Assembly: GCA_958295645.1 (NCBI GenBank)
Contig: OY282361.1
Location: 1,764,501-1,828,500 of the forward strand
DNA: 64,000 nucleotides
From: Longimicrobiales bacterium
GTDB taxonomy: Bacteria; Gemmatimonadota; Gemmatimonadetes; Longimicrobiales; Gaopeijiaceae
Direction of reading: 5' to 3'
In this document: positions 21,601 through 30,408 of the stretch, one piece after another
How positions within the stretch are numbered: the stretch's first letter is position 1
Layout of the letters: each line of letters begins with the position of its first letter
Notes under the pieces: model-generated
What the model saw: the letters and a program-made list of their open reading frames with translations, nothing else
The model's database searches: none
Told to the model about the DNA's origin: nothing
Made by a program: the position numbers and the translations under genes

Positions 21601-21760
21601 CGAGTTCGGCGAAGTGGCGAGCCGCATCGGCCGCCTGTACTCGGCGGTCGAGGGCGTGGTTGCGCCGCTTACTCGCGACCAGCAGTCGCGCCGGGCCTAC
21701 TACCGCCAAGCGCTGGAGACTCTCGAGGCCGAACTGGCCGCGGCCGCGCCGCGCCGATAA
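18650..21760 (+). CDS. VPS10/BNR-repeat secreted beta-propeller protein
   Basis: A 1036-residue protein with a short N-terminal hydrophobic segment and at least eight BNR-type turns (S-x-DGG-x-TW, for example STDGGATW and SRDGGATW) through about residues 40-760, as in the sortilin/VPS10-like 'glycosyl hydrolase' proteins common in Bacteroidota, Acidobacteriota and Gemmatimonadota. The C-terminal 250 residues are Ala/Arg-rich and helical. Catalytic activity is unproven in this group; a surface binding or peptidase-associated role is possible. The last 27 bases of the gene before its stop recur at 26555-26581. Confidence 0.82.
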   Translation: MNATLLAAVSSIAAAAPPVAAVLPQEPAPLATPQLDALRPRNIGPAVMSGRIVDLAVVESDPSKFYVASATGGVFKTSDNGITLSPVFEHEGTHSVGAIAVHPVDTALVWVGTGERASRQSSSWGDGLYKSTDGGATWTHMGLRESRHVGRIALHPSDPETVYVAAMGHLWGPNEERGLYKSADGGATWTRILHVDEDTGAVDVALDPQNPETVYAATYQRRRRPWGFHGGGPGSALYKSTDGGATWDKLTGAEAGRGLPEGDIGRIGISIYRSDPRIVYASVEQGYRYNASTAYTERRAGIYRSEDRGESWEHMSDWNPRPMYASQILVDPSDDQRIYMVNSYSFSDDGGRNFTVPRQSLHGDDRLVWVDPADSRHVMKADDGGLGISYDRGLSWLYISDLPVSQYYRVAVDMARPYNVYGGLQDNGSWMGPSETYRSDGILNGDWRRLGGGDGFLNIPDTTNNAIVYTESQYLGLSRFDLRTGERTAIRPGDPQGHIAARRNWTTWRDIAAPEEQRLGNAMAPANWDGPFVVSPHDASTLYAGTNVLWKTTDRGDSWTALGDLTTGVDRRTLPIMGQAPGEFVPSLDDGIPYYPTISAVAESPLAEGLLYAGTDDGRLHVSRDGGATWTDVAGAMPGLPEGAWIAGLEPSRRYEGRLYAVVNNYRNDDYANYLYRSDDHGATWTSVLGDLPPERVLRTVREDPRNPDVLFLGAEIGLFYTMDGGRRWTELRGGMPTLAFNDLAVHPRDNDLVLGTHGRGVWILDQINALQELSQEVMARPAHLFSIEPAVQVRRAGRGAHAGDVHFRGENPPNGALLDYWLAQAADSGEVELVVESSGGERVATPAGTGLQGMNRVVWDLRHEVGETAAAGAAGGSFAARAGGAGPRGPLVVPGTYVVRLRASGAESVQEVEVRPDPRSRVSAEVRAEWTETLLELARARLRATAGRARARATAVAADAEAPGQEGLEAASRGDAKLRGLEREFGEVASRIGRLYSAVEGVVAPLTRDQQSRRAYYRQALETLEAELAAAAPRR
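21733..21759. repeat. 27-bp direct repeat, left copy (tail of the VPS10-like gene)
   Basis: An exact 27-base match to 26555-26581. Here it is the coding end of the VPS10-like gene; the other copy sits without a gene about 90 bp before the M16 start. The two copies bracket the SGNH copies A-D. Confidence 0.85.
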
Positions 21761-21820
21761 GCTTCGGCTCCGCGCCGAACCGGGTCGGCGAGCCGGCCGA
21801 CGGCGTGTTCGAGGCAACCG
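21760..21820 (+). pseudogene. Relic of an M16 peptidase 3' region
   Basis: About 51 of 61 bases match the intact M16 gene at 29182-29242, and the translation keeps its frame (SFGSAPNR...VFE here, SFGSAPDR...VFE there). It directly follows the VPS10-like stop and directly precedes the C-terminal end of SGNH copy A, the same order M16-then-SGNH seen at 29.5 kb. It looks like what is left of a duplicated M16 gene after deletion. Confidence 0.6.
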
Positions 21821-21830
21821 GCCGTCGGCG

Positions 21831-22611
21831 TTCGCCACAGACCGATCGGTTCCGCTCCAACCATTCCATCACAGCTTCGGCCGCCCATTGGTGGCCCTGC
21901 GGGTTCCAGTGCCAGTCGTGCTTCCACCGGGCGTCCTCGAGAACCCCGCCCTGGCGGAGAATCCAGCCGGCCTGGTCGATCACCGGGATGTCCCGGGCTT
22001 CGGCGAGGCGCACCAAGCCATCGAACCAAGGGCGGCCACGAGTTGCCATCGAGTAACTCGCCAGGACGACCATTGCAAACGCCTCGTCAACCTCTGCAAA
22101 AGCGTCCGAACGCGGAACACCCCGGCGTTCGGATGCGGCGGACGGACGGCAATGCGGCCGTCCTTCTCCCTGACAGCCGTCGGCACTGGAGGTCGATCCG
22201 AGTTCCAACGGTTGGACGCAAAGTTGTCGTAAATGTCGTTCGACACGTAGACGAGCACGACAAGCTTGGGGCGCAGGCGCCGTACCCACTTGTCGTAGAA
22301 CGGCAGCTGGTCGATCTGCCCCGTCGCCCGCCAAGGCTGTTCGTCCGAGATACCGTCCAGAATTCTCGCGAGTTCGTCCAGCGCACCTCCGCATTGGGTG
22401 CCGGATGGCGCCCAACGCCGGGAACGAATTCCATGGGCCGGTGCCGGGAGACGAACGGCGATGCCGAGCGGAGCCACACCTCGTAGCCGGCGGCAATCCC
22501 GCCAGGAACTGCAAGAAGAAGCAAGGCGTTCCACCAGACGACGCGCACTGCCGCGCGAAGACGCGAAGGAGGCCTCGCCGAGTCGGGGGCGGGCGGGGGC
22601 GAGCCGGCCAT
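21831..22611 (-). pseudogene. SGNH hydrolase copy A, broken
   Basis: Homologous to copies B-E. It starts at ATG 22611, only 2 bp beyond the stop of copy B, and keeps the membrane anchor region (NALLLLAVPGGIAAGYEVWL). An internal deletion near 22340 then removes the catalytic GDS block, joining the TNSLG segment to the region before QLPFYDKWVRRLRPK in another frame. A further frame change occurs before the C-terminal HWNPQGHQWAAEAV block, and the normal stop after VCGE is lost, so the frame runs on towards 21669. Without the nucleophile block it cannot be an active esterase. Confidence 0.75.
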
Positions 22612-22613
22612 CG

Positions 22614-23753
22614 TCACTCGCCACAGACCGATTGGTTCCGCTTCAACCATTCAAGCACGGCTTCGGCTGCCCATTGGTGGCCCTGTGGAGTCCAGTGCAG
22701 GTCGTACTCGTACTCAGCGTCCTCGAGGGCCCCGCCCTGGCGGAGAATCCAGTCGGCTTGGTCGATCACCGGGATGTTCCGGGCCTCGGCGAAGCCCGCC
22801 AAGCCATCGAACCGAGGGTTTCCACGAGTTCCCATCGAGTGAATCGCCAGGACGACCAATGCAACGCCGTCAGAACTCGTCCGTTGCTTCCACTGGTCAA
22901 GCCCAAGGAGCGTGAAGTCTTCCGGTTCCTGCCACTGTTGCGAAATCAGCCGATCCGACACCCCCCGCCGGCGGAAGCGGAAATGGTCGACTGGTCCAAG
23001 GAAAACATCAGTGCAAAGGGGACGAACGCGGCAGGCGGCGCGCAAATGACGCTTCAACCACTGCAAGGACGTCCCAGCGCGGAACGCTGCTGCGTTCGGA
23101 TGCGGCAGACGGACGGCAATGCGCCCGCCGTCCTCCTTGACCGCCGTCGGCCTTGGAGGCCGATCGAAATCCCATCCCCAGCCTTCAACGGCACTCCCCG
23201 AGTTGTCGCGAAAGTCGTTCGGCACGAAGACCAGCACGACGAGCTTGGGGCGCAGGCGCCGTACCCACTTGTCGTAGAACGGCAGCTGGGCGATCTGCCC
23301 CGTCTGTCGTCGGCCCCACGCCGAGACGGTGACGTCCAGTTGAGGCAACCGCTCGGTTGCCGATTCCTCCAGCCGAACTTGAAGCTTGTCCGCGATCCCG
23401 ACTTCCGCCGCTTCGACGAAGGAGTCGCCCACGAAGGCGACGTGGCAACTCGCCGCCGCGCGCTCGGGACTCGGCGGCTCCCTGTCGAGGAAGCCAAGGC
23501 TGTTCGTCCGAGATACCGTCCAGAATTCTCGCAAGTTCGTCCAGCGCACCTCCGCATTGGGCACCGGATGGCGCCCCACGCCCGGAACGAATTCTACGGG
23601 CCAGCTCCTGGAGACGAACGGCGATACCGCACGAAGCCACACCTCGTAGCCGACAACCCCGCCAGGAACTGCAAGAAACAAGGCGTTCCAACAGACGACG
23701 CGCAATGCGGCGCGACGCCGCGAAGAAGGCCTTGGCGAGTCGCGGGCCGACAT
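22614..23753 (-). CDS. Membrane-anchored SGNH/GDSL hydrolase, copy B
   Basis: About 379 residues. One N-terminal hydrophobic helix (NALFLAVPGGVVGYEVWL) should anchor it, with the hydrolase outside. SGNH blocks are visible: block I FVGDSFVEA with the nucleophile Ser, a block III-like VFVPNDF, and the catalytic Asp/His block DLHWTPQGHQWAAEAV near the C terminus. Such proteins act as esterases or acyl transferases, often on cell-surface glycans; the substrate here is unknown. The start is placed at 23753 because this ATG aligns with the start codons of copies A, D and E; in-frame starts also exist up to 23789. Copy A follows after 2 bp. Confidence 0.78.
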   Translation of the reverse strand: MSARDSPRPSSRRRAALRVVCWNALFLAVPGGVVGYEVWLRAVSPFVSRSWPVEFVPGVGRHPVPNAEVRWTNLREFWTVSRTNSLGFLDREPPSPERAAASCHVAFVGDSFVEAAEVGIADKLQVRLEESATERLPQLDVTVSAWGRRQTGQIAQLPFYDKWVRRLRPKLVVLVFVPNDFRDNSGSAVEGWGWDFDRPPRPTAVKEDGGRIAVRLPHPNAAAFRAGTSLQWLKRHLRAACRVRPLCTDVFLGPVDHFRFRRRGVSDRLISQQWQEPEDFTLLGLDQWKQRTSSDGVALVVLAIHSMGTRGNPRFDGLAGFAEARNIPVIDQADWILRQGGALEDAEYEYDLHWTPQGHQWAAEAVLEWLKRNQSVCGE

Positions 23754-24029
23754 GGAGGGCTTTCCCATCTTCAATTTTCCCATCTTCAAGGCTCCAAGAA
23801 GCTCCCGCGTCGGATCGGCCCGCCGAAGCGGCAGTCAACCGCTCGGCGAGCGGCACGCCTATTGTAATCGAACCCTAAGCCCGCCGAAAGACGACCGCGC
23901 TGGCCCGCCTCGCGCACCTCCCGCGCATGAGGCCGGTCGCCCTAGCCGGCCATCGTATCGCCACAGACCGATTGGTTCCGCTCCAACCAGTCAAGCACGG
24001 CTTCGGCTGCCCATTGGTGGCCCTGTGGA
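23644..24029. repeat. 386-bp perfect direct repeat, left copy
   Basis: Identical base for base to 24984-25369 at an offset of 1340. It covers the N-terminal codons of copy B, the gap with the shared upstream element, and the C-terminal codons of copy C. Perfect identity between otherwise diverged copies points to recent duplication or gene conversion. Confidence 0.9.
23799..23870 (-). promoter_or_regulatory. Shared structured upstream element (before SGNH copy B)
   Basis: Read on the minus strand, it begins with CGATTACAATAGG, whose TACAAT (23861-23866) could be a -10 box, and continues with the hairpin CCGCTC-GCC-GAGCGG and a second hairpin GCCG-CTT-CGGC. An identical copy lies before copy C, a shortened one before copy D, and a version about 80% identical (58 of 72 bases) starts at 35081 on the plus strand. 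No good -35 box is seen. It may be a promoter plus leader RNA or a dispersed repeat. Confidence 0.5.
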
Positions 24030-25093
24030 ACCCAGTGCAGGTCGTGCTCCCAATGACTGTCCTCGAGAGCCCCGCCCTGGCGGAGAATCCAGTCGGCTTG
24101 GTCGATCACCGGGATGTTCCGGGCCTCGGCGAAGCCCGCCAAGCCATCGAACCGAGGGTTTCCACGAGTTCCCATCGTGTGAATCGCCAGGACGACCAAT
24201 GCAACGCCGTCAGAACTCGTCCGTTGCTTCCACTGGTCAAGCCCAAAGAGCGTGAAGTCTTCCGGTTCCTGCCACTGTTGCGAAATCAGCCGATCCGACA
24301 CCCCCCGGCCGAGGAAGCGGAAACGGTCGACTCGTCCAAGGAAAACATCAGTGCAAAGGGGACGAATGTGGCAGGCGACGCGCAAATGACGCTTCAACCA
24401 CTGCAAGGACGTCCCAGCGCGGAACGCTGCTGCGTTCGGATGCGGCAGACGGACGGCAATGCGCCCGTCGTCCTCCTTGACCGCCGTCGGCCTTGGAGGC
24501 CGATCGAAATCCCATCCCCAGCCTTCAACGGGACTCCCCGAGTTGTCGTGAAAGTCGTTCGGCACGAAGACCAGCACGACGAGCTTGGGGCGCAGGCGCC
24601 GTACCCACTTGTCGTAGAACGGCAGCTGGGCGATCTGCCCCGTCCTCTCTCTGCCCCAAGCCGAAGTGGTGACGTCCAGTTGGGGCAACCGCTCCGCTGC
24701 CAACTCCTCCAGCCGAACTTGAAGCTTGTCCGCGATCCCGACTTCCACCGCTCTGACGTAGGAATCGCCCACGAAGGCGACGTGGCAACTGGCCGCCGCG
24801 CGCTCGGGACTCGGCGGCTCCCTGTCGAGGAAGCCGAGGCTGTTCGTCCGCCCTACCGTCCAGTAGTCGCGCATGTTCGTCCAGCGCACCTCCGCATTGG
24901 GCGCTGGATGGCGCCCCACACCGGGAACGAATTCCAACGGCTGGCGCAAGGAAACGAACGGCCTCGCCGTGCGGAGCCACAATTCGTAGCCGACAACCCC
25001 GCCAGGAACTGCAAGAAACAAGGCGTTCCAACAGACGACGCGCAATGCGGCGCGACGCCGCGAAGAAGGCCTTGGCGAGTCGCGGGCCGACAT
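23942..25093 (-). CDS. Membrane-anchored SGNH/GDSL hydrolase, copy C
   Basis: About 383 residues with the same plan as copy B: membrane helix near residues 15-40, block I FVGDSYVRA, VFVPNDF, and the C-terminal DLHWVPQGHQWAAEAV. It is nearly identical to B in the central region, but its segments around EFVPGVGRH, the TNMRDYW stretch and LEELAAERL match copy D rather than B, so the gene is a mosaic. It ends with four extra residues (DTMAG instead of E) shared with D. The start at 25093 corresponds to 23753 in copy B. Confidence 0.78.
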   Translation of the reverse strand: MSARDSPRPSSRRRAALRVVCWNALFLAVPGGVVGYELWLRTARPFVSLRQPLEFVPGVGRHPAPNAEVRWTNMRDYWTVGRTNSLGFLDREPPSPERAAASCHVAFVGDSYVRAVEVGIADKLQVRLEELAAERLPQLDVTTSAWGRERTGQIAQLPFYDKWVRRLRPKLVVLVFVPNDFHDNSGSPVEGWGWDFDRPPRPTAVKEDDGRIAVRLPHPNAAAFRAGTSLQWLKRHLRVACHIRPLCTDVFLGRVDRFRFLGRGVSDRLISQQWQEPEDFTLFGLDQWKQRTSSDGVALVVLAIHTMGTRGNPRFDGLAGFAEARNIPVIDQADWILRQGGALEDSHWEHDLHWVPQGHQWAAEAVLDWLERNQSVCGDTMAG

Positions 25094-25369
25094 GGAGGGC
25101 TTTCCCATCTTCAATTTTCCCATCTTCAAGGCTCCAAGAAGCTCCCGCGTCGGATCGGCCCGCCGAAGCGGCAGTCAACCGCTCGGCGAGCGGCACGCCT
25201 ATTGTAATCGAACCCTAAGCCCGCCGAAAGACGACCGCGCTGGCCCGCCTCGCGCACCTCCCGCGCATGAGGCCGGTCGCCCTAGCCGGCCATCGTATCG
25301 CCACAGACCGATTGGTTCCGCTCCAACCAGTCAAGCACGGCTTCGGCTGCCCATTGGTGGCCCTGTGGA
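24984..25369. repeat. 386-bp perfect direct repeat, right copy
   Basis: Partner of 23644-24029. Here it spans the start of copy C, the C-D gap and the end of copy D. Identity stops sharply at both ends, after which the genes differ at scattered bases. Confidence 0.9.
25139..25210 (-). promoter_or_regulatory. Shared structured upstream element (before SGNH copy C)
   Basis: Identical to 23799-23870 because it lies within the 386-bp repeat. Putative -10 TACAAT at 25201-25206, followed by the same two hairpins, 46 bp from the chosen start codon of copy C. Confidence 0.5.
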
Positions 25370-26436
25370 GTCCAGTGCCTGTCGTGCTTCCACACGGCGT
25401 CCTCGGGCGTCCCGCCCTGGCGGAGAATCCAGCCGGCCTGGCTGATCACCGGGATGTCCCGGGCCTCGGCGAGGCGCGCCAAGCCATCGAAATGAGGGTC
25501 GCCACGAGTTCCCATCGAGCGAATCGCCAGGACGACCAGTACAACGCGGTCGGATCTCGTCCGTTCCTTCCACTGGTCAAGCGCAAAGGCCGTGAAGTCT
25601 GCCGACACCCACAACCCCTCAACAGGAGGCGGCAAGTCTGGCGCCATCCCGTGGAGGAATTCGTCGTATGGTCCGAGGAGGACGTCAGCGCAAAGGGGGC
25701 GAAGGCCACAGGCGACGCGAAAACGACCTGTCAATATCTTCATGGGCGTCCGAGCGCGGTACGCCTCGGAACTCGGATGCGGCAGATGAACGGCAATGCG
25801 GCCGTCCTCCTTCCTGACTGCCGCCCGCCTTGGAGGCCGATCGTAGTCCCATCCCAAGCCTTCATAGCCCAGCGACGAGTTGTTCCCAACGTCGTTCGGC
25901 CCGAAGACGAGCACGACCAGCTTGGGGCGCAGGCGCCGTACCCACTTGTCGTAGTACGGCAGCTGAGCGATCTGCCCCGTCCCCTCTCTGCCCCAAGCCG
26001 AAGTGGTGACGTCCAGTTGGGGCAACCGCTCCGCCGCCAACTCCTCCAGCCGAACTTGAAGCTTGTCCGCGACCCCGACTTCCACCGCTCTGACGTAGGA
26101 GTCGCCCACGAAGGCGACGTGGCAACTGGCCGCCGCGCGCTCGGGACTCGGCGGCTCCCTGTCGAGGAAGCCAAGGCTGTTCGTCCGAGATACCGTCCAG
26201 AATTCTCGCATGTTCGTCCAGCGCACCTCCGCATTGGGCACCGGATGGCGCCCCACGCCGGGAACGAATTCGAACAGCTGGTGCAAGGAGACGAACGGCC
26301 TTGCCGTGCGGAGCCACAATTCGTAGCCGGCGGCAATCCCGCCCGGAACTGCAAGAAGAAGCAAGGCGTTCCAACAGACGACGCGCATTGCAGCGCGAAG
26401 GCCTCGTCTAAGTCGGGGGGGGGGGGGGGCTCGCAT
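25282..26436 (-). CDS. Membrane-anchored SGNH/GDSL hydrolase, copy D, with poly-C start region
   Basis: From ATG 26436 the protein is about 384 residues: Met-Arg-Ala, then a Pro run from a C15 tract, the membrane helix, block I FVGDSYVRA, VFGPNDV and C-terminal HWTPQGHQWAAEAV (DRHW here where B and C have DLHW). The middle third (after GPND) diverges clearly from B and C, while both ends are close, again a mosaic. The frame is also open up to 26508, but those codons come from an inserted gene fragment. The homopolymer directly after the start could switch the frame on and off. Confidence 0.75.
   Translation of the reverse strand: MRAPPPPRLRRGLRAAMRVVCWNALLLLAVPGGIAAGYELWLRTARPFVSLHQLFEFVPGVGRHPVPNAEVRWTNMREFWTVSRTNSLGFLDREPPSPERAAASCHVAFVGDSYVRAVEVGVADKLQVRLEELAAERLPQLDVTTSAWGREGTGQIAQLPYYDKWVRRLRPKLVVLVFGPNDVGNNSSLGYEGLGWDYDRPPRRAAVRKEDGRIAVHLPHPSSEAYRARTPMKILTGRFRVACGLRPLCADVLLGPYDEFLHGMAPDLPPPVEGLWVSADFTAFALDQWKERTRSDRVVLVVLAIRSMGTRGDPHFDGLARLAEARDIPVISQAGWILRQGGTPEDAVWKHDRHWTPQGHQWAAEAVLDWLERNQSVCGDTMAG
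26415..26429. repeat. G15/C15 homopolymer in SGNH copy D
   Basis: Fifteen consecutive G on the plus strand, read as C on the coding strand, beginning seven bases into the gene. At this length the frame is open into the SGNH domain. Homopolymers of this length slip readily in replication and also in sequencing. Confidence 0.8.
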
Positions 26437-26492
26437 GTTCGTCCGACGCACCTCCGCATTGAGTGCTCGATGGCGCCCCACGCCAGAAACGA
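26437..26492 (-). pseudogene. Fragment of an SGNH gene inserted before copy D
   Basis: About 56 bases closely match the internal part of the SGNH genes that encodes GVGRH...NAEVRWTN (compare copy C near 24870-24930). The piece lies directly upstream of the copy D start and cuts short the shared upstream element. It is in frame with copy D, giving a possible N-terminal extension from 26508. Confidence 0.6.
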
Positions 26493-26536
26493 AGCGGCGG
26501 CCAAGCACTCGGCGAGCGGCACACCTATTGTAACTG
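26493..26536 (-). promoter_or_regulatory. Shortened shared upstream element (before SGNH copy D)
   Basis: About 44 bases of the element seen before copies B and C. The possible -10 TACAAT (26527-26532) is intact; the hairpin is weaker (GAGTGC instead of GAGCGG). It ends where the inserted SGNH fragment begins. Confidence 0.45.
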
Positions 26537-26554
26537 AGCCCCTACGCCTGCGGG

Positions 26555-26581
26555 ACTGGCCGCGGCCGCGCCGCGCCGATA
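26555..26581. repeat. 27-bp direct repeat, right copy
   Basis: Exact copy of the VPS10-like gene tail (21733-21759), here outside any gene, 88 bp before the M16 start. It marks the likely junction of an ancient tandem duplication. Confidence 0.85.
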
Positions 26582-26669
26582 GGTTTGACGGCGCAGGCGT
26601 TGGCGCCACCGGCAACGGGACGATCCGCGTCTGCCAGCCTCGACTCAACCAAATCCGAAGAGGACCAAG

Positions 26670-29516
26670 ATGCGCGCTTCCCCCGTTCGCCTTCACGCGT
26701 TCGTTTTCGCTCTCCTGGCCGCCACGACCGTCGCAGTTCCCGCGCGGGCCCAGGAAACTCCCAGAATCCCGAGCATTGAATCGGCCGACGACTACCTCGT
26801 CGACGATCCGGCGGTCGTCGCGGGCGTGCTCGACAACGGCCTCCGCTACTACGTCCGCTCCAACGGGCGGCCCGAGAACCGCACCCTCCTGCGCTTGGCG
26901 GTCAATGCGGGCTCCATCCTGGAAGACGAAGACCAGCGCGGCCTCGCGCACTTCGTCGAACACATGGCCTTCAACGGAACGCGCAATTTCGAGAAGCAGG
27001 CCCTGGTGGACTATCTCGAGTCCATCGGCATGGCCTTCGGTCCGGACATCAACGCGTACACCAGCTTCGACGAAACGGTCTACATGCTTGAAGTCCCCAT
27101 GGACGATCCCGAGATGCTCGCCACGGCGTTTCGCATCTTGGAAGACTGGGCCAGCGCCGTCGTCCTCGACCCCGAGGAAGTCGACAAGGAGAGGGGCGTC
27201 GTCACGGAGGAATGGCGGCTGGGGAGGGGAGCCGGCGCCCGCATGTTGGATCAGCAGTTTCCCGTGCTCTTCGAGGGCTCGCTCTATGCGGATCGGTTGC
27301 CGATCGGCGACACCGAGGTGCTTGCGACGGCGCCGGCCGAGACGTTGCGGCGCTTCTACGAGACGTGGTACCGGCCCGACTTGATGGCGGTCGTCGCGGT
27401 AGGCGACTTCGACTCAAGCGCCATCGTGGACAAGATTCGCCAGCACTTCGGCCACCTGCAGAACCCCAGCGACGCTCCCGCACGCCCAACCCACGCCGTG
27501 CCCATCGACCATCCGCCCCGGGTCGCCGTGGCCACCGACGAGGAGGCCCAGATGACCCGGGTCGGCGTGTTGTACAAGCAGCCTCCGCAGAGCTACCGGC
27601 GGGTGGCCGACTTCCGGCGGGGCTTGGTGCAGCAGCTCTACGCGGGAATGCTGAATTCGAGGCTGGACGAGCTGACCCGGCAGGCCGAGCCGCCGTTCGT
27701 GATGGCGATTTCCATGCGCGGCGGCTTCGTGCGCGCCATGGACGCCTATCAGTTGATGGCCATCGTCGAAGAGGGCAAGCTCGAACGCGGCATGGAAACG
27801 CTCCTCACCGAAGCCGAGCGAGTGGCGCGGCACGGCTTCGCCGCCAGCGAGCTGGAAAGACAGAAGATCGAGGTCATGCGCGGATACGAACGCCGGTTCG
27901 CCGAAAGAGAGAACCAGGAGTCCGGGGCGATCGCCGGCCAGCTCGTCAACGCCTTCCTCGAGGATCGGGCGTATCCCGACGTGGAGATGCAGGCCGCGCT
28001 GGCGCAGATGCTGTTGCCCGGCGTCACCGTTGAAGAGACGAACGCGCTGGTCTCGGAGTGGATGAAGGAAGACGGCCGAGTCGTGCTCGTGGACGCCCCC
28101 GAGAAGGAAGACGTCGAGGCTCCCGTTCCCGAGGACTTTGCGGCGATGTTCGACGCCGTCGCGGCGAAGGCCATCGATCCTTACGAAGACGCCGAAGTGG
28201 ACGCCCCTCTCGTGCCGGACGTCCCGGCCGGAGCAGCCGTGGCGGAGGCGCAGTCGGTGGACGAAGTGGGCGTCACGATCTGGACGCTGGAGAACGGCGT
28301 GCGCGTGCTGCTCAAGCCGACCGACTTCAAGGACGACGAAATCGTCTTTACGGCCACCAGCCCGGGCGGAGCTTCGCTTGCGCCGGACGAAACATACATG
28401 AGCGCCACGATGGCTTCGCTCTTGGTGGACCGAGGCGGCGTGGGAGCATTCGACATGACGGCCCTCGGCAAGAAGCTGACCGGCAAGGCCGTCAGCGTGT
28501 CGCCGACCATCTCGGGGCTGTCCGAGGGTTTCGGCGGACGCGCGTCGCCTCAGGACATCGAGACGGCGTTTCAGCTGATCTACCTGTACTTCACTGCGCC
28601 GCGAAAGGACGAGGCGGCTTTCGAGGCGACGAAGGCTCTGTTCGGCAGCATCCTGGCCAACGCTTCCTCCGACCCCGCCTCCGTGTTCGGAGACACGGTG
28701 GCCGTCACGATGAGCCAGGGACACCCGCGCGCCCGCCCTCCTCGAGTTGAAGATCTCGAGGAGCTCGACTTGGACGAGGCCTTCGGCTTCTACAACGACC
28801 GCTTCGCCGACGCCAGCGACTTCACCTTCTACTTCGTGGGCGCGTTCGAGTTGGAGGGCATCCGGCCCCTGGTGGAGCAGTATCTGGGCGCCCTCCCCAC
28901 CTTGGGACGCGAGGAGAGTTGGCGCGACCTGGGCATCGATCCGCCCAGCGGCGTCGTCGAAAAGGTCGTGCGCAAGGGCGTCGAACCCCAGAGCCAAACG
29001 CGGATCATCTTCGCCGGCGACGCAGAGTACACGTTCGAGGCGAACGCCGTGATGATCGCCCTAGCGGACGTCCTGGAGATCCGGTTGCGCGAACTGCTCC
29101 GCGAAGACCTGGGCGGGACCTACGGCGTGGGCGTGTCCGGCCGGATCGACCGGGAGCCGGACCAGGAGTACCGGGTCGGCATCAGCTTCGGCTCCGCGCC
29201 GGACCGGGCCGACGAGCTGGCCACCGTCGTGTTCGAGGAGATCGAACGCATGAAGACGGACGGCCCCGATGCCGAGACCGTGGCCAAGGTTCGCGAGACG
29301 CAGCGGCGCGCCAAGGAATCCAACCTGCGAGAGAACGGCTACTGGCTCGGGCAAGTCCGCCGCTTCGATCGCGAAGGCATCGACTTGGCCGAGATCCCGA
29401 GCTACGACCTCATCGAGGCGTGGTCGGCGGAGCAGCTGCAGGCGGCCGCGGCGCGCTATCTGCGTCTGGATCAGTACGCGAAGTTCGTGCTTCAGCCGGA
29501 GAAGATCGTGCCGTAG
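26670..29516 (+). CDS. Secreted M16 (pitrilysin-family) zinc metallopeptidase
   Basis: A 948-residue protein with a clear signal peptide (hydrophobic core ALLAATTVAV, cleavage near ARAQ). The inverted zinc motif HFVEH lies at about residues 93-97 and the distal Glu ligand in RGVVTEEWR near 176, so the first M16 domain should be catalytic. The second half is a further M16 pair without HxxEH, as usual for the single-chain 900+ residue type. It likely degrades peptides in the periplasm. It lies between SGNH copies D and E, on the opposite strand. GAGG about 8-11 bases before the ATG serves as the ribosome site. Confidence 0.92.
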   Translation: MRASPVRLHAFVFALLAATTVAVPARAQETPRIPSIESADDYLVDDPAVVAGVLDNGLRYYVRSNGRPENRTLLRLAVNAGSILEDEDQRGLAHFVEHMAFNGTRNFEKQALVDYLESIGMAFGPDINAYTSFDETVYMLEVPMDDPEMLATAFRILEDWASAVVLDPEEVDKERGVVTEEWRLGRGAGARMLDQQFPVLFEGSLYADRLPIGDTEVLATAPAETLRRFYETWYRPDLMAVVAVGDFDSSAIVDKIRQHFGHLQNPSDAPARPTHAVPIDHPPRVAVATDEEAQMTRVGVLYKQPPQSYRRVADFRRGLVQQLYAGMLNSRLDELTRQAEPPFVMAISMRGGFVRAMDAYQLMAIVEEGKLERGMETLLTEAERVARHGFAASELERQKIEVMRGYERRFAERENQESGAIAGQLVNAFLEDRAYPDVEMQAALAQMLLPGVTVEETNALVSEWMKEDGRVVLVDAPEKEDVEAPVPEDFAAMFDAVAAKAIDPYEDAEVDAPLVPDVPAGAAVAEAQSVDEVGVTIWTLENGVRVLLKPTDFKDDEIVFTATSPGGASLAPDETYMSATMASLLVDRGGVGAFDMTALGKKLTGKAVSVSPTISGLSEGFGGRASPQDIETAFQLIYLYFTAPRKDEAAFEATKALFGSILANASSDPASVFGDTVAVTMSQGHPRARPPRVEDLEELDLDEAFGFYNDRFADASDFTFYFVGAFELEGIRPLVEQYLGALPTLGREESWRDLGIDPPSGVVEKVVRKGVEPQSQTRIIFAGDAEYTFEANAVMIALADVLEIRLRELLREDLGGTYGVGVSGRIDREPDQEYRVGISFGSAPDRADELATVVFEEIERMKTDGPDAETVAKVRETQRRAKESNLRENGYWLGQVRRFDREGIDLAEIPSYDLIEAWSAEQLQAAAARYLRLDQYAKFVLQPEKIVP

Positions 29517-29540
29517 TCCCGAGCTGGTTCGTCGGTCGAG

Positions 29541-30408
29541 TCAGGCGGCCGGCCCTCGTCGCTCGTCGCAGACCGATTGGTTCCGCTCCAACCATTCCAG
29601 CACGGCTTCGGCTGCCCATCGGTGGCCCTGCGGGGCCCAGTGCCCGTCATGCTCCCAATGAGCGTCCTCGGCAACCCCGCCCTGGCGGAGAATCCAGTCG
29701 GCTTGGTCGATCACCGGGATGTTCCGGGCCTCGGCGAGGCGCGCCAAGCCATCGAACTGAGGGTTGCCACGAGTGCCCATCAAGTGAATCGACAGGACGG
29801 CCAATGCAACGCCGTCGGATCTCGTCCGTTGCGTAGGCCCCTCCCGAGTTTTCGCTCCAGTCGTTCGGCACGAAGACGAGCACGACGAGCTTGGGGCGCA
29901 GGCGCCGTGCCCATTTTTCGTAGTAAGGCAGCTGAGCGATTTGCCCCGTCCGCTGTCGCCCCCAAGCCGAGGTGGTGACGTCCAGTTGAGGCAACCGCTC
30001 GGTTGCCGATTTCTCCAGCCGAACTTGCAACTTGTCCGCGATCCCGACTTGTGCCGCTTCGACGAAGGAGTCGCCCACGAAGGCGACGTGGCAACTGGCC
30101 GCCGCGCGCTCGGGACTCGGCGGCTCCCTGTCGAGGAAGCCAAGGCTGTTCGTCCGCTCCACCGTCCAGAATTCTCGCAAGTTCGTCCAGCGCACCTCTG
30201 CATTGGGCGCTGGATGACGCCCCACGCCGGGAACGAATTCCCCGGGCTGCCGGCTCTTGGAGTCGAACGGCAACGCCTCGCGGAACCACACCTCGTAGCC
30301 GACGGCGATCCCGCCAGGAACGCCAAGAAGAAGCAAGGCGTTCCAACAGACGACGCGCAATGCGGCGCGAAGAGGCCTCGCCGAGTCGGGGGGGGGGGGG
30401 GGGGGCAT
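29541..30408 (-). pseudogene. SGNH hydrolase copy E, broken, with poly-C start
   Basis: Starts at ATG 30408, followed at once by a C18 tract (six Pro codons), then the membrane helix (NALLLLGVPGGIAVGYEVW), block I FVGDSFVEA and VFVPNDW. Near 29845 an internal deletion of roughly 120 codons joins NSGGAY to the region before SDGVALAVL, in a different frame, so the Asp/His block (HWAPQGHRWAAEAV) is out of frame with the start. It lies 19 bp after the ornithine-cyclodeaminase gene and converges on M16 with a 24-bp gap. Confidence 0.75.
30388..30405. repeat. G18/C18 homopolymer at the start of SGNH copy E
   Basis: Eighteen G on the plus strand; on the coding strand C18 directly follows the ATG. 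The frame is open through it at this length. Confidence 0.8.

Follow-up and report, generated by a model that had tools for sequence, protein, structure and literature searches.

The window examined here (a 64-kb stretch of the genome of a Longimicrobiales bacterium, the genome being one contig of 2.89 Mb) carries on its minus strand, at 21831-30408, five SGNH/GDSL paralogues, three of them intact (copies B, C and D) and two broken (A and E). Segments have been exchanged between these copies, and on the sequence evidence set out below the array is a recombining and probably contingency-type locus, in which switching itself is a prediction. The reading adopted, which we would put at even chances, is that of a tandem, recombining family of membrane SGNH proteins that would decorate glycans, some copies being switched by slippage in poly-C tracts.

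Organisation of the array

An earlier note on this DNA had described five homologous SGNH/GDSL genes, three intact and two broken, within 8.6 kb. That description is correct as regards the copies, and is completed here by an intact and unrelated M16 peptidase gene lying among them, which the note had omitted (Table 1). The repeat period of copies B, C and D is 1340 and 1337 nt. Copy A, in which the block-I region (with the catalytic Ser) is deleted, overlaps the 3' end of copy B. A 27-mer from the end of the upstream sortilin-like gene is found at 21733 and again before the M16 gene at 26555; taken together with the remnant of the M16 3' end beside copy A, this recurrence implies that the array grew with segmental duplication. 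Five relatives with M16 homologues share no sortilin-like, transporter or SGNH neighbours with the window, so that the ancestral (empty) locus cannot be read from them. No further close SGNH copy is present in the genome outside the array, and an Rfam search of the window gave no match.

It is hardly credible that the array is an artefact of assembly, i.e. a false duplication or a set of collapsed strain variants. The sequence does come from one MAG contig, and long homopolymers are error-prone, but the copies differ from one another by 5-30% and have distinct deletions, and comparable arrays are found in many other assembled genomes.

Table 1 Positions of the SGNH copies, their tracts and associated features.
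Feature	Position	Strand	Description
Copy A	21831-22650	(-)	Broken SGNH gene; frame broken; N-terminal part 22330-22650, C-terminal part 21831-22091
Copy B	22614-23789	(-)	Intact, membrane-anchored SGNH protein; 391-aa frame; likely start is the ATG in 'MSARDSPRP'
Copy C	23942-25129	(-)	Intact; mosaic, with 5' end and middle of B, N-terminal third and 3' end of D
Copy D	25282-26436	(-)	Intact; own middle third; start at ATG 26436 (upstream of tract) or ATG 26388 (downstream)
Copy E	29541-30408	(-)	Broken; middle deleted internally, frameshift near 29840
C15 tract	26415-26429	(-)	N terminus of copy D; C on coding strand
C18 tract	30388-30405	(-)	Follows directly on the ATG of copy E at 30408; assembled length keeps the frame (M-Pro6)
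M16 peptidase gene	26670-29516	(+)	Intact; within array, between D and E; not a family member
C-B spacer	23700-23950	(-)	Identical to D-C spacer 25040-25290; tandem duplication of 1340-nt unit
SGNH N-terminal block fragment	26430-26493	(-)	86% to copy D; just upstream of C15 tract; recombination scar
M16 gene 3'-end remnant	21757-21814	(+)	58 nt, 86%; adjoins copy A
C-terminal domain of ~120 residues	L038:9561-9980, L038:13580-14983, L038:18443-20425		Also in the C-terminal extensions of most multi-phylum SGNH copies

Protein family, fold and genomic neighbours

The SGNH blocks of the family (numbered as in alignment A2) are GDS95-97 (block I), N165-D166 (block III) and D336-x-H338 (block V), and Ser97, Asn165 and His338 are invariant in all 55 sequences of that alignment, which omits one copy (L031:6942) from G025, a relative of the window genome. 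In the omitted copy (L031:6942-8201), GGS and PPD replace GDS and PND, and it is possibly a non-catalytic member of an intact array. Against the Pfam family Lipase_GDSL_2 (cut-off 32.9 bits) copy D scores 35.8, above the threshold, while B (32.1) and C (28.5) fall just below it; ALGX is matched at a sub-threshold 20-24 bits (cut-off 26.5), no NCBIfam family comes near its cut-off, and a search of the PDB by sequence gave no match. An AlphaFold2 model (pLDDT 86.7, pTM 0.85) comprises an N-terminal helix and an SGNH domain, and comparison of this model with the PDB gave 86 matches at E<=0.001, those among the matches listed being mostly SGNH/GDSL enzymes and including CgnD, PatB, TesA and acetyl-xylan esterases. 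The conserved blocks, the predicted fold and the N-terminal helix thus bear out the original assignment of these genes as encoding membrane-anchored SGNH proteins.

The SGNH genes of most genomes having several copies, and those of two outgroups with a single copy, have as neighbour a carbamoyltransferase gene (PF02543/PF16861), whole or truncated, and often an SxtJ-like gene as well; this linkage places the family in the decoration of a glycan or a small molecule. The window genome has two carbamoyltransferase genes, both away from the array, and G025 has none; the array itself has no adjoining glycan gene. From the fold, the membrane anchor and the linkage to carbamoyltransferase and SxtJ-like genes elsewhere, we infer that the enzymes of the array modify glycans. 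It is distinctly unlikely that the array represents a catabolic or dosage expansion, whose copies de-acylate different environmental or host polysaccharides so that substrate specialisation and not surface variation is what is seen. Such an expansion would fit the acetyl-xylan esterases among the fold neighbours, and a variable cap would be expected to alter substrate, but each protein is membrane-anchored, and the carbamoyltransferase and SxtJ-like neighbours, present in single-copy outgroups too, point to assembly of a decorated product.

Two further features of these loci may be recorded. At L038:4957-8198 and in similar loci, ThiS-like, SxtJ-like and carbamoyltransferase genes precede SGNH copies, and truncated carbamoyltransferase ends precede others. 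A C-terminal domain of ~120 residues, for which there is no Pfam match, is common to SGNH proteins and to two large membrane-type proteins; it is absent from the SGNH copies of the window genome.

Exchange of segments between copies

It had been proposed from inspection that copy C resembles D near the N terminus and B in the middle, while D has a middle third of its own. Alignment of the five copies and a test for recombination, as the earlier note had suggested, show with clear statistical support that C is a mosaic of B and D, and the pattern extends further than was claimed. No difference separates C from B over 257 aligned nt that take in the 5' flank and the start; C is then D-like in alignment columns 275-616 and B-like (97-98%) in columns 617-1210, and its last 90 nt, including the 3' flank, are identical to D. 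The informative sites in C are clustered, falling into 26 runs among 197 sites, a number as low as which was reached in none of 20000 permutations (0/20000). The middle third of D is 53-80% identical to B and C. Runs tests for a mosaic signal were negative for E as derived from B and D, and for D as derived from C and A, and they lend no support to the idea that A and E serve as silent donors. The outer pattern of C (5' end of B, 3' end of D) is attributed to unequal crossing-over between B and D, and its inner switches would need additional exchange.

The divergence between copies is uneven along the gene. For the N block, middle and C block respectively, pS is 0.19, 0.32 and 0.10 between B and D, and 0.14, 0.30 and 0.22 among 11 copies of G025; dN/dS is about 1 in the middle region, although this region is aligned less surely, which could inflate both pN and pS. 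In both sets the flanks have diverged less at synonymous sites than the middle has, so that the flanks are homogenised and the middle, which is the cap separating catalytic blocks III and V, is not.

Poly-C tracts at the start of the genes

The C15 and C18 tracts are the only runs of at least 9 in the 64-kb window, and the occurrence of two such runs within 8.6 kb is above chance (0.05 expected); in the whole genome there are 17 G/C runs of at least 9, of which 11 are of at least 12, with lengths of 14-26. The earlier note had placed both tracts right at the start codon. This is exact for copy E, but in D the tract begins 7 nt past the ATG at 26436 and is followed by a second in-frame ATG, at 26388. 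If one C is added or lost in copy D, the frame from the upstream ATG becomes one of 9 or 231 aa; since the tract lies between two in-frame ATGs, such a slip removes only the longer form, and translation from the downstream ATG is not abolished. Given also that E is a pseudogene, neither tract clearly gates an intact gene here; the intact copies B and C have no tract.

Over the family as a whole, C runs of at least 9 are found in only 6 of about 80 scored starts. Set against other sequence, this is nonetheless a marked concentration: 6 C runs of at least 9 in 6.2 kb of family start windows, where 0.07 would be expected, as against 8 G/C runs in 683 kb elsewhere, i.e. an enrichment of about 80-fold with all runs having C on the coding strand, in a test that was chosen after the tracts of the window had been seen and in which the count is 4 if D and E are left out. 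A parallel is found in a gammaproteobacterial MAG (OY282354; G061), where two tandem SGNH copies read ATG-ACG-AGC-ACA-GC and then C24, four codons after the ATG and directly before the membrane helix, at the same site as in D and E; a clear AAGGAG lies upstream in the first of the two. All four long tracts (15, 18, 24 and 24) are in frame as assembled. The C9 tracts of loci L040 and L044, which are seemingly out of frame with the nearest ATG, were considered as possible OFF alleles and rejected, as neighbouring single-base differences explain them equally well.

An unlikely alternative is that the G/C tracts act mainly on the DNA, as break- or quadruplex-prone sites seeding recombination (like the guanine quartet near Neisseria pilE), and not as translational switches. 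The D tract abuts a duplicated fragment of the SGNH N block, i.e. a recombination junction; in the MAG G061, too, tracts sit between a duplicated 5' gene fragment and the likely true start of Calx-beta genes; and the copies are mosaic, all of which such a role would lead one to expect. However, the clearest mosaics, B and C, are tract-free, and the sole breakpoint that maps to a tract is the 5' end of D.

Other candidate contingency genes

Tracts of this kind are not confined to the SGNH family. Elsewhere in the window genome (C1:1884000-1894000; L099) there is a tandem array of at least five paralogues of PMT_2-type membrane glycosyltransferases, three of which have tracts (G20, G26 and G11) in the region of the start codon. 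At C1:326789-331322 (L096:1790-6323) the frame of an Mrr-ResIII helicase is followed by a C18 tract and then by an N6-methylase (N6_Mtase) in a different frame, an arrangement that looks like a phase-variable restriction-modification (RM) gene in its OFF state. Near C1 33310 (L095:1967-3748), a C21 tract lies within an open frame, which it keeps as Gly7, and which has a GHKL-ATPase-like motif and no Pfam match. The MAG OY282354 (loci L143-L162) has 36 G/C runs of at least 12. Among those sampled, seven follow a shared (M/V)KRW start; four of these keep the downstream reading frame and three do not. Two of the four in-frame cases are Calx-beta proteins, and in several of these loci translation may in truth begin beyond the tract.

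These loci bear on what is perhaps the most substantial alternative, which we regard as possible though doubtful, namely that the array reflects birth and death of tandem duplicates with unequal crossing-over, the tracts having no switching role and having expanded neutrally in an N-terminal tail that is Pro-rich and free of constraint. It would account for the decay of two of the five copies and the fragments in many genomes, for the Pro-rich and variable start regions of the family, and for tract differences between relatives that are multiples of three (C6 vs C9), as if only in-frame changes persist; copy D, moreover, can start past its tract. Less easily explained in this way are tract lengths of 14-26 with few intermediates, in a genome with so small a total of G/C runs of at least 9, and the fact that tracts turn up again both in an RM gene and where the copies of another, unrelated paralogue array begin.

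The proposal that this is a surface-variation locus is partly supported: inter-copy recombination, a non-random tract site that recurs in an unrelated genome and the other contingency-like loci all speak for it, while any product translated from the downstream ATG of D, which a slip would spare, speaks against it.

Distribution and horizontal spread

In a sample of the phylum the family was found in 2 of 395 genomes, the window genome and G025. In a sample of the family and order (58 genomes), close homologues were found in G025 alone, as 11 full copies and one fragment in small arrays, with weak matches in G010 and G018. Similar arrays in related genomes, which it had been proposed to look for, are thus represented by G025; the contrary picture, of relatives each with one conserved copy, was not what was found, as a close SGNH copy is absent from 56 of the other 57 relatives searched.

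An earlier scan of contigs with a single protein as query gave no match. A profile scan of GTDB genomes, which relied on two short peptides and so does not prove absence elsewhere, found the family in MAGs of Pseudomonadales, Gammaproteobacteria, Nitrospirales, Vicinamibacterales, Candidatus Entotheonella and Longimicrobiales. Most of these MAGs belong to one accession series; each has 3-13 matches, often tandemly arranged and accompanied by fragments. A few outgroups with a single copy stand further off. To judge by the accession series and by the Entotheonella label, the bacteria carrying these genes are probably sponge symbionts. Amino-acid identity reaches 95% between Nitrospirales and Gammaproteobacteria, 93% between Vicinamibacterales and Pseudomonadales and 91% between Entotheonella and Gammaproteobacteria, and in a tree the copies of different phyla intermix, which together imply horizontal transfer among the multi-phylum copies. 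The copies of the window genome and those of G025 form clades of their own, indicating lineage-specific expansion or concerted evolution there.

Relation to known systems

Most known cases of phase variation through slippage at homopolymers come from Proteobacteria and Campylobacterota that live with hosts, above all from pathogens. In the literature searched no paper joined sponge symbionts to an SGNH hydrolase, and those in which sponge-associated symbionts and phase variation are both mentioned do not seem, by title and abstract, to deal with this subject.

The phase-variable poly-G/C genes of Campylobacter include the maf1/maf7 groups and type IIG RM genes, with core tracts of 7-13 nt (PhasomeIt, PMC6321876). 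The present genome is similar in having G/C tracts in paralogous, putative surface-modification genes together with RM genes carrying tracts, but whereas those of Campylobacter are known or putative switches, the tracts here are longer (15-18, and 24 in the relative), belong to an SGNH family and would switch by prediction. In pilin antigenic variation at Neisseria pilE/pilS there is one expressed locus with silent copies (PMC3547852, PMC12871193); gene-conversion mosaics, partial copies and a G-rich element are common to both systems, but the array here has three full-length genes, each with its own start, one of which (C) combines segments of the two other intact genes. Among AT3-SGNH acyltransferases, O-antigen acetylation by OafB is phase-variable and modulates phage interaction, the switching of oafB being epigenetic (reviewed in PMC9558356). 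In these too an extracytoplasmic SGNH domain acts on a surface glycan (the putative substrate here), but the present proteins have no fused AT3 domain, just a single N-terminal helix. Finally, crocagin biosynthesis employs the hydrolase CgnD and, in addition, a carbamoyltransferase (PMC10070186). PatB (7tlv) and CgnD (8a2n) are among the best PDB matches, and share the fold; with TM-scores of 0.36-0.60 and identities of 15-16% for proteins of this type, the fold is the same but the family is not.

Proposed mechanism and significance

On the reading adopted, the array would encode periplasm-facing, membrane-anchored acyl hydrolases or transferases of SGNH fold, acting on surface or secreted glycans as their presumed substrate. 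Unequal crossing-over and gene conversion homogenise the N- and C-terminal blocks, while the cap region stays distinct between copies. In some copies the start codon and the membrane helix are separated by a long poly-C tract, slippage in which may turn their translation on or off, so that a population might express differing combinations of enzyme variants and hence differing glycan decoration.

A wider suggestion, offered tentatively, is that a hitherto undescribed, poly-C-switched, mosaic SGNH family has passed horizontally between phyla living together (probably in sponges) as a shared surface-variation toolkit, along with glycosyltransferase arrays and Calx-beta and RM contingency genes. 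What is described here is the anatomy of contingency loci in a genome of Longimicrobiales type and in further bacteria presumed to be symbionts, with a family found across phyla at up to 95% identity. Such a finding would imply that contingency loci operate in communities of uncultured symbionts too, and that this kind of locus is itself mobile.
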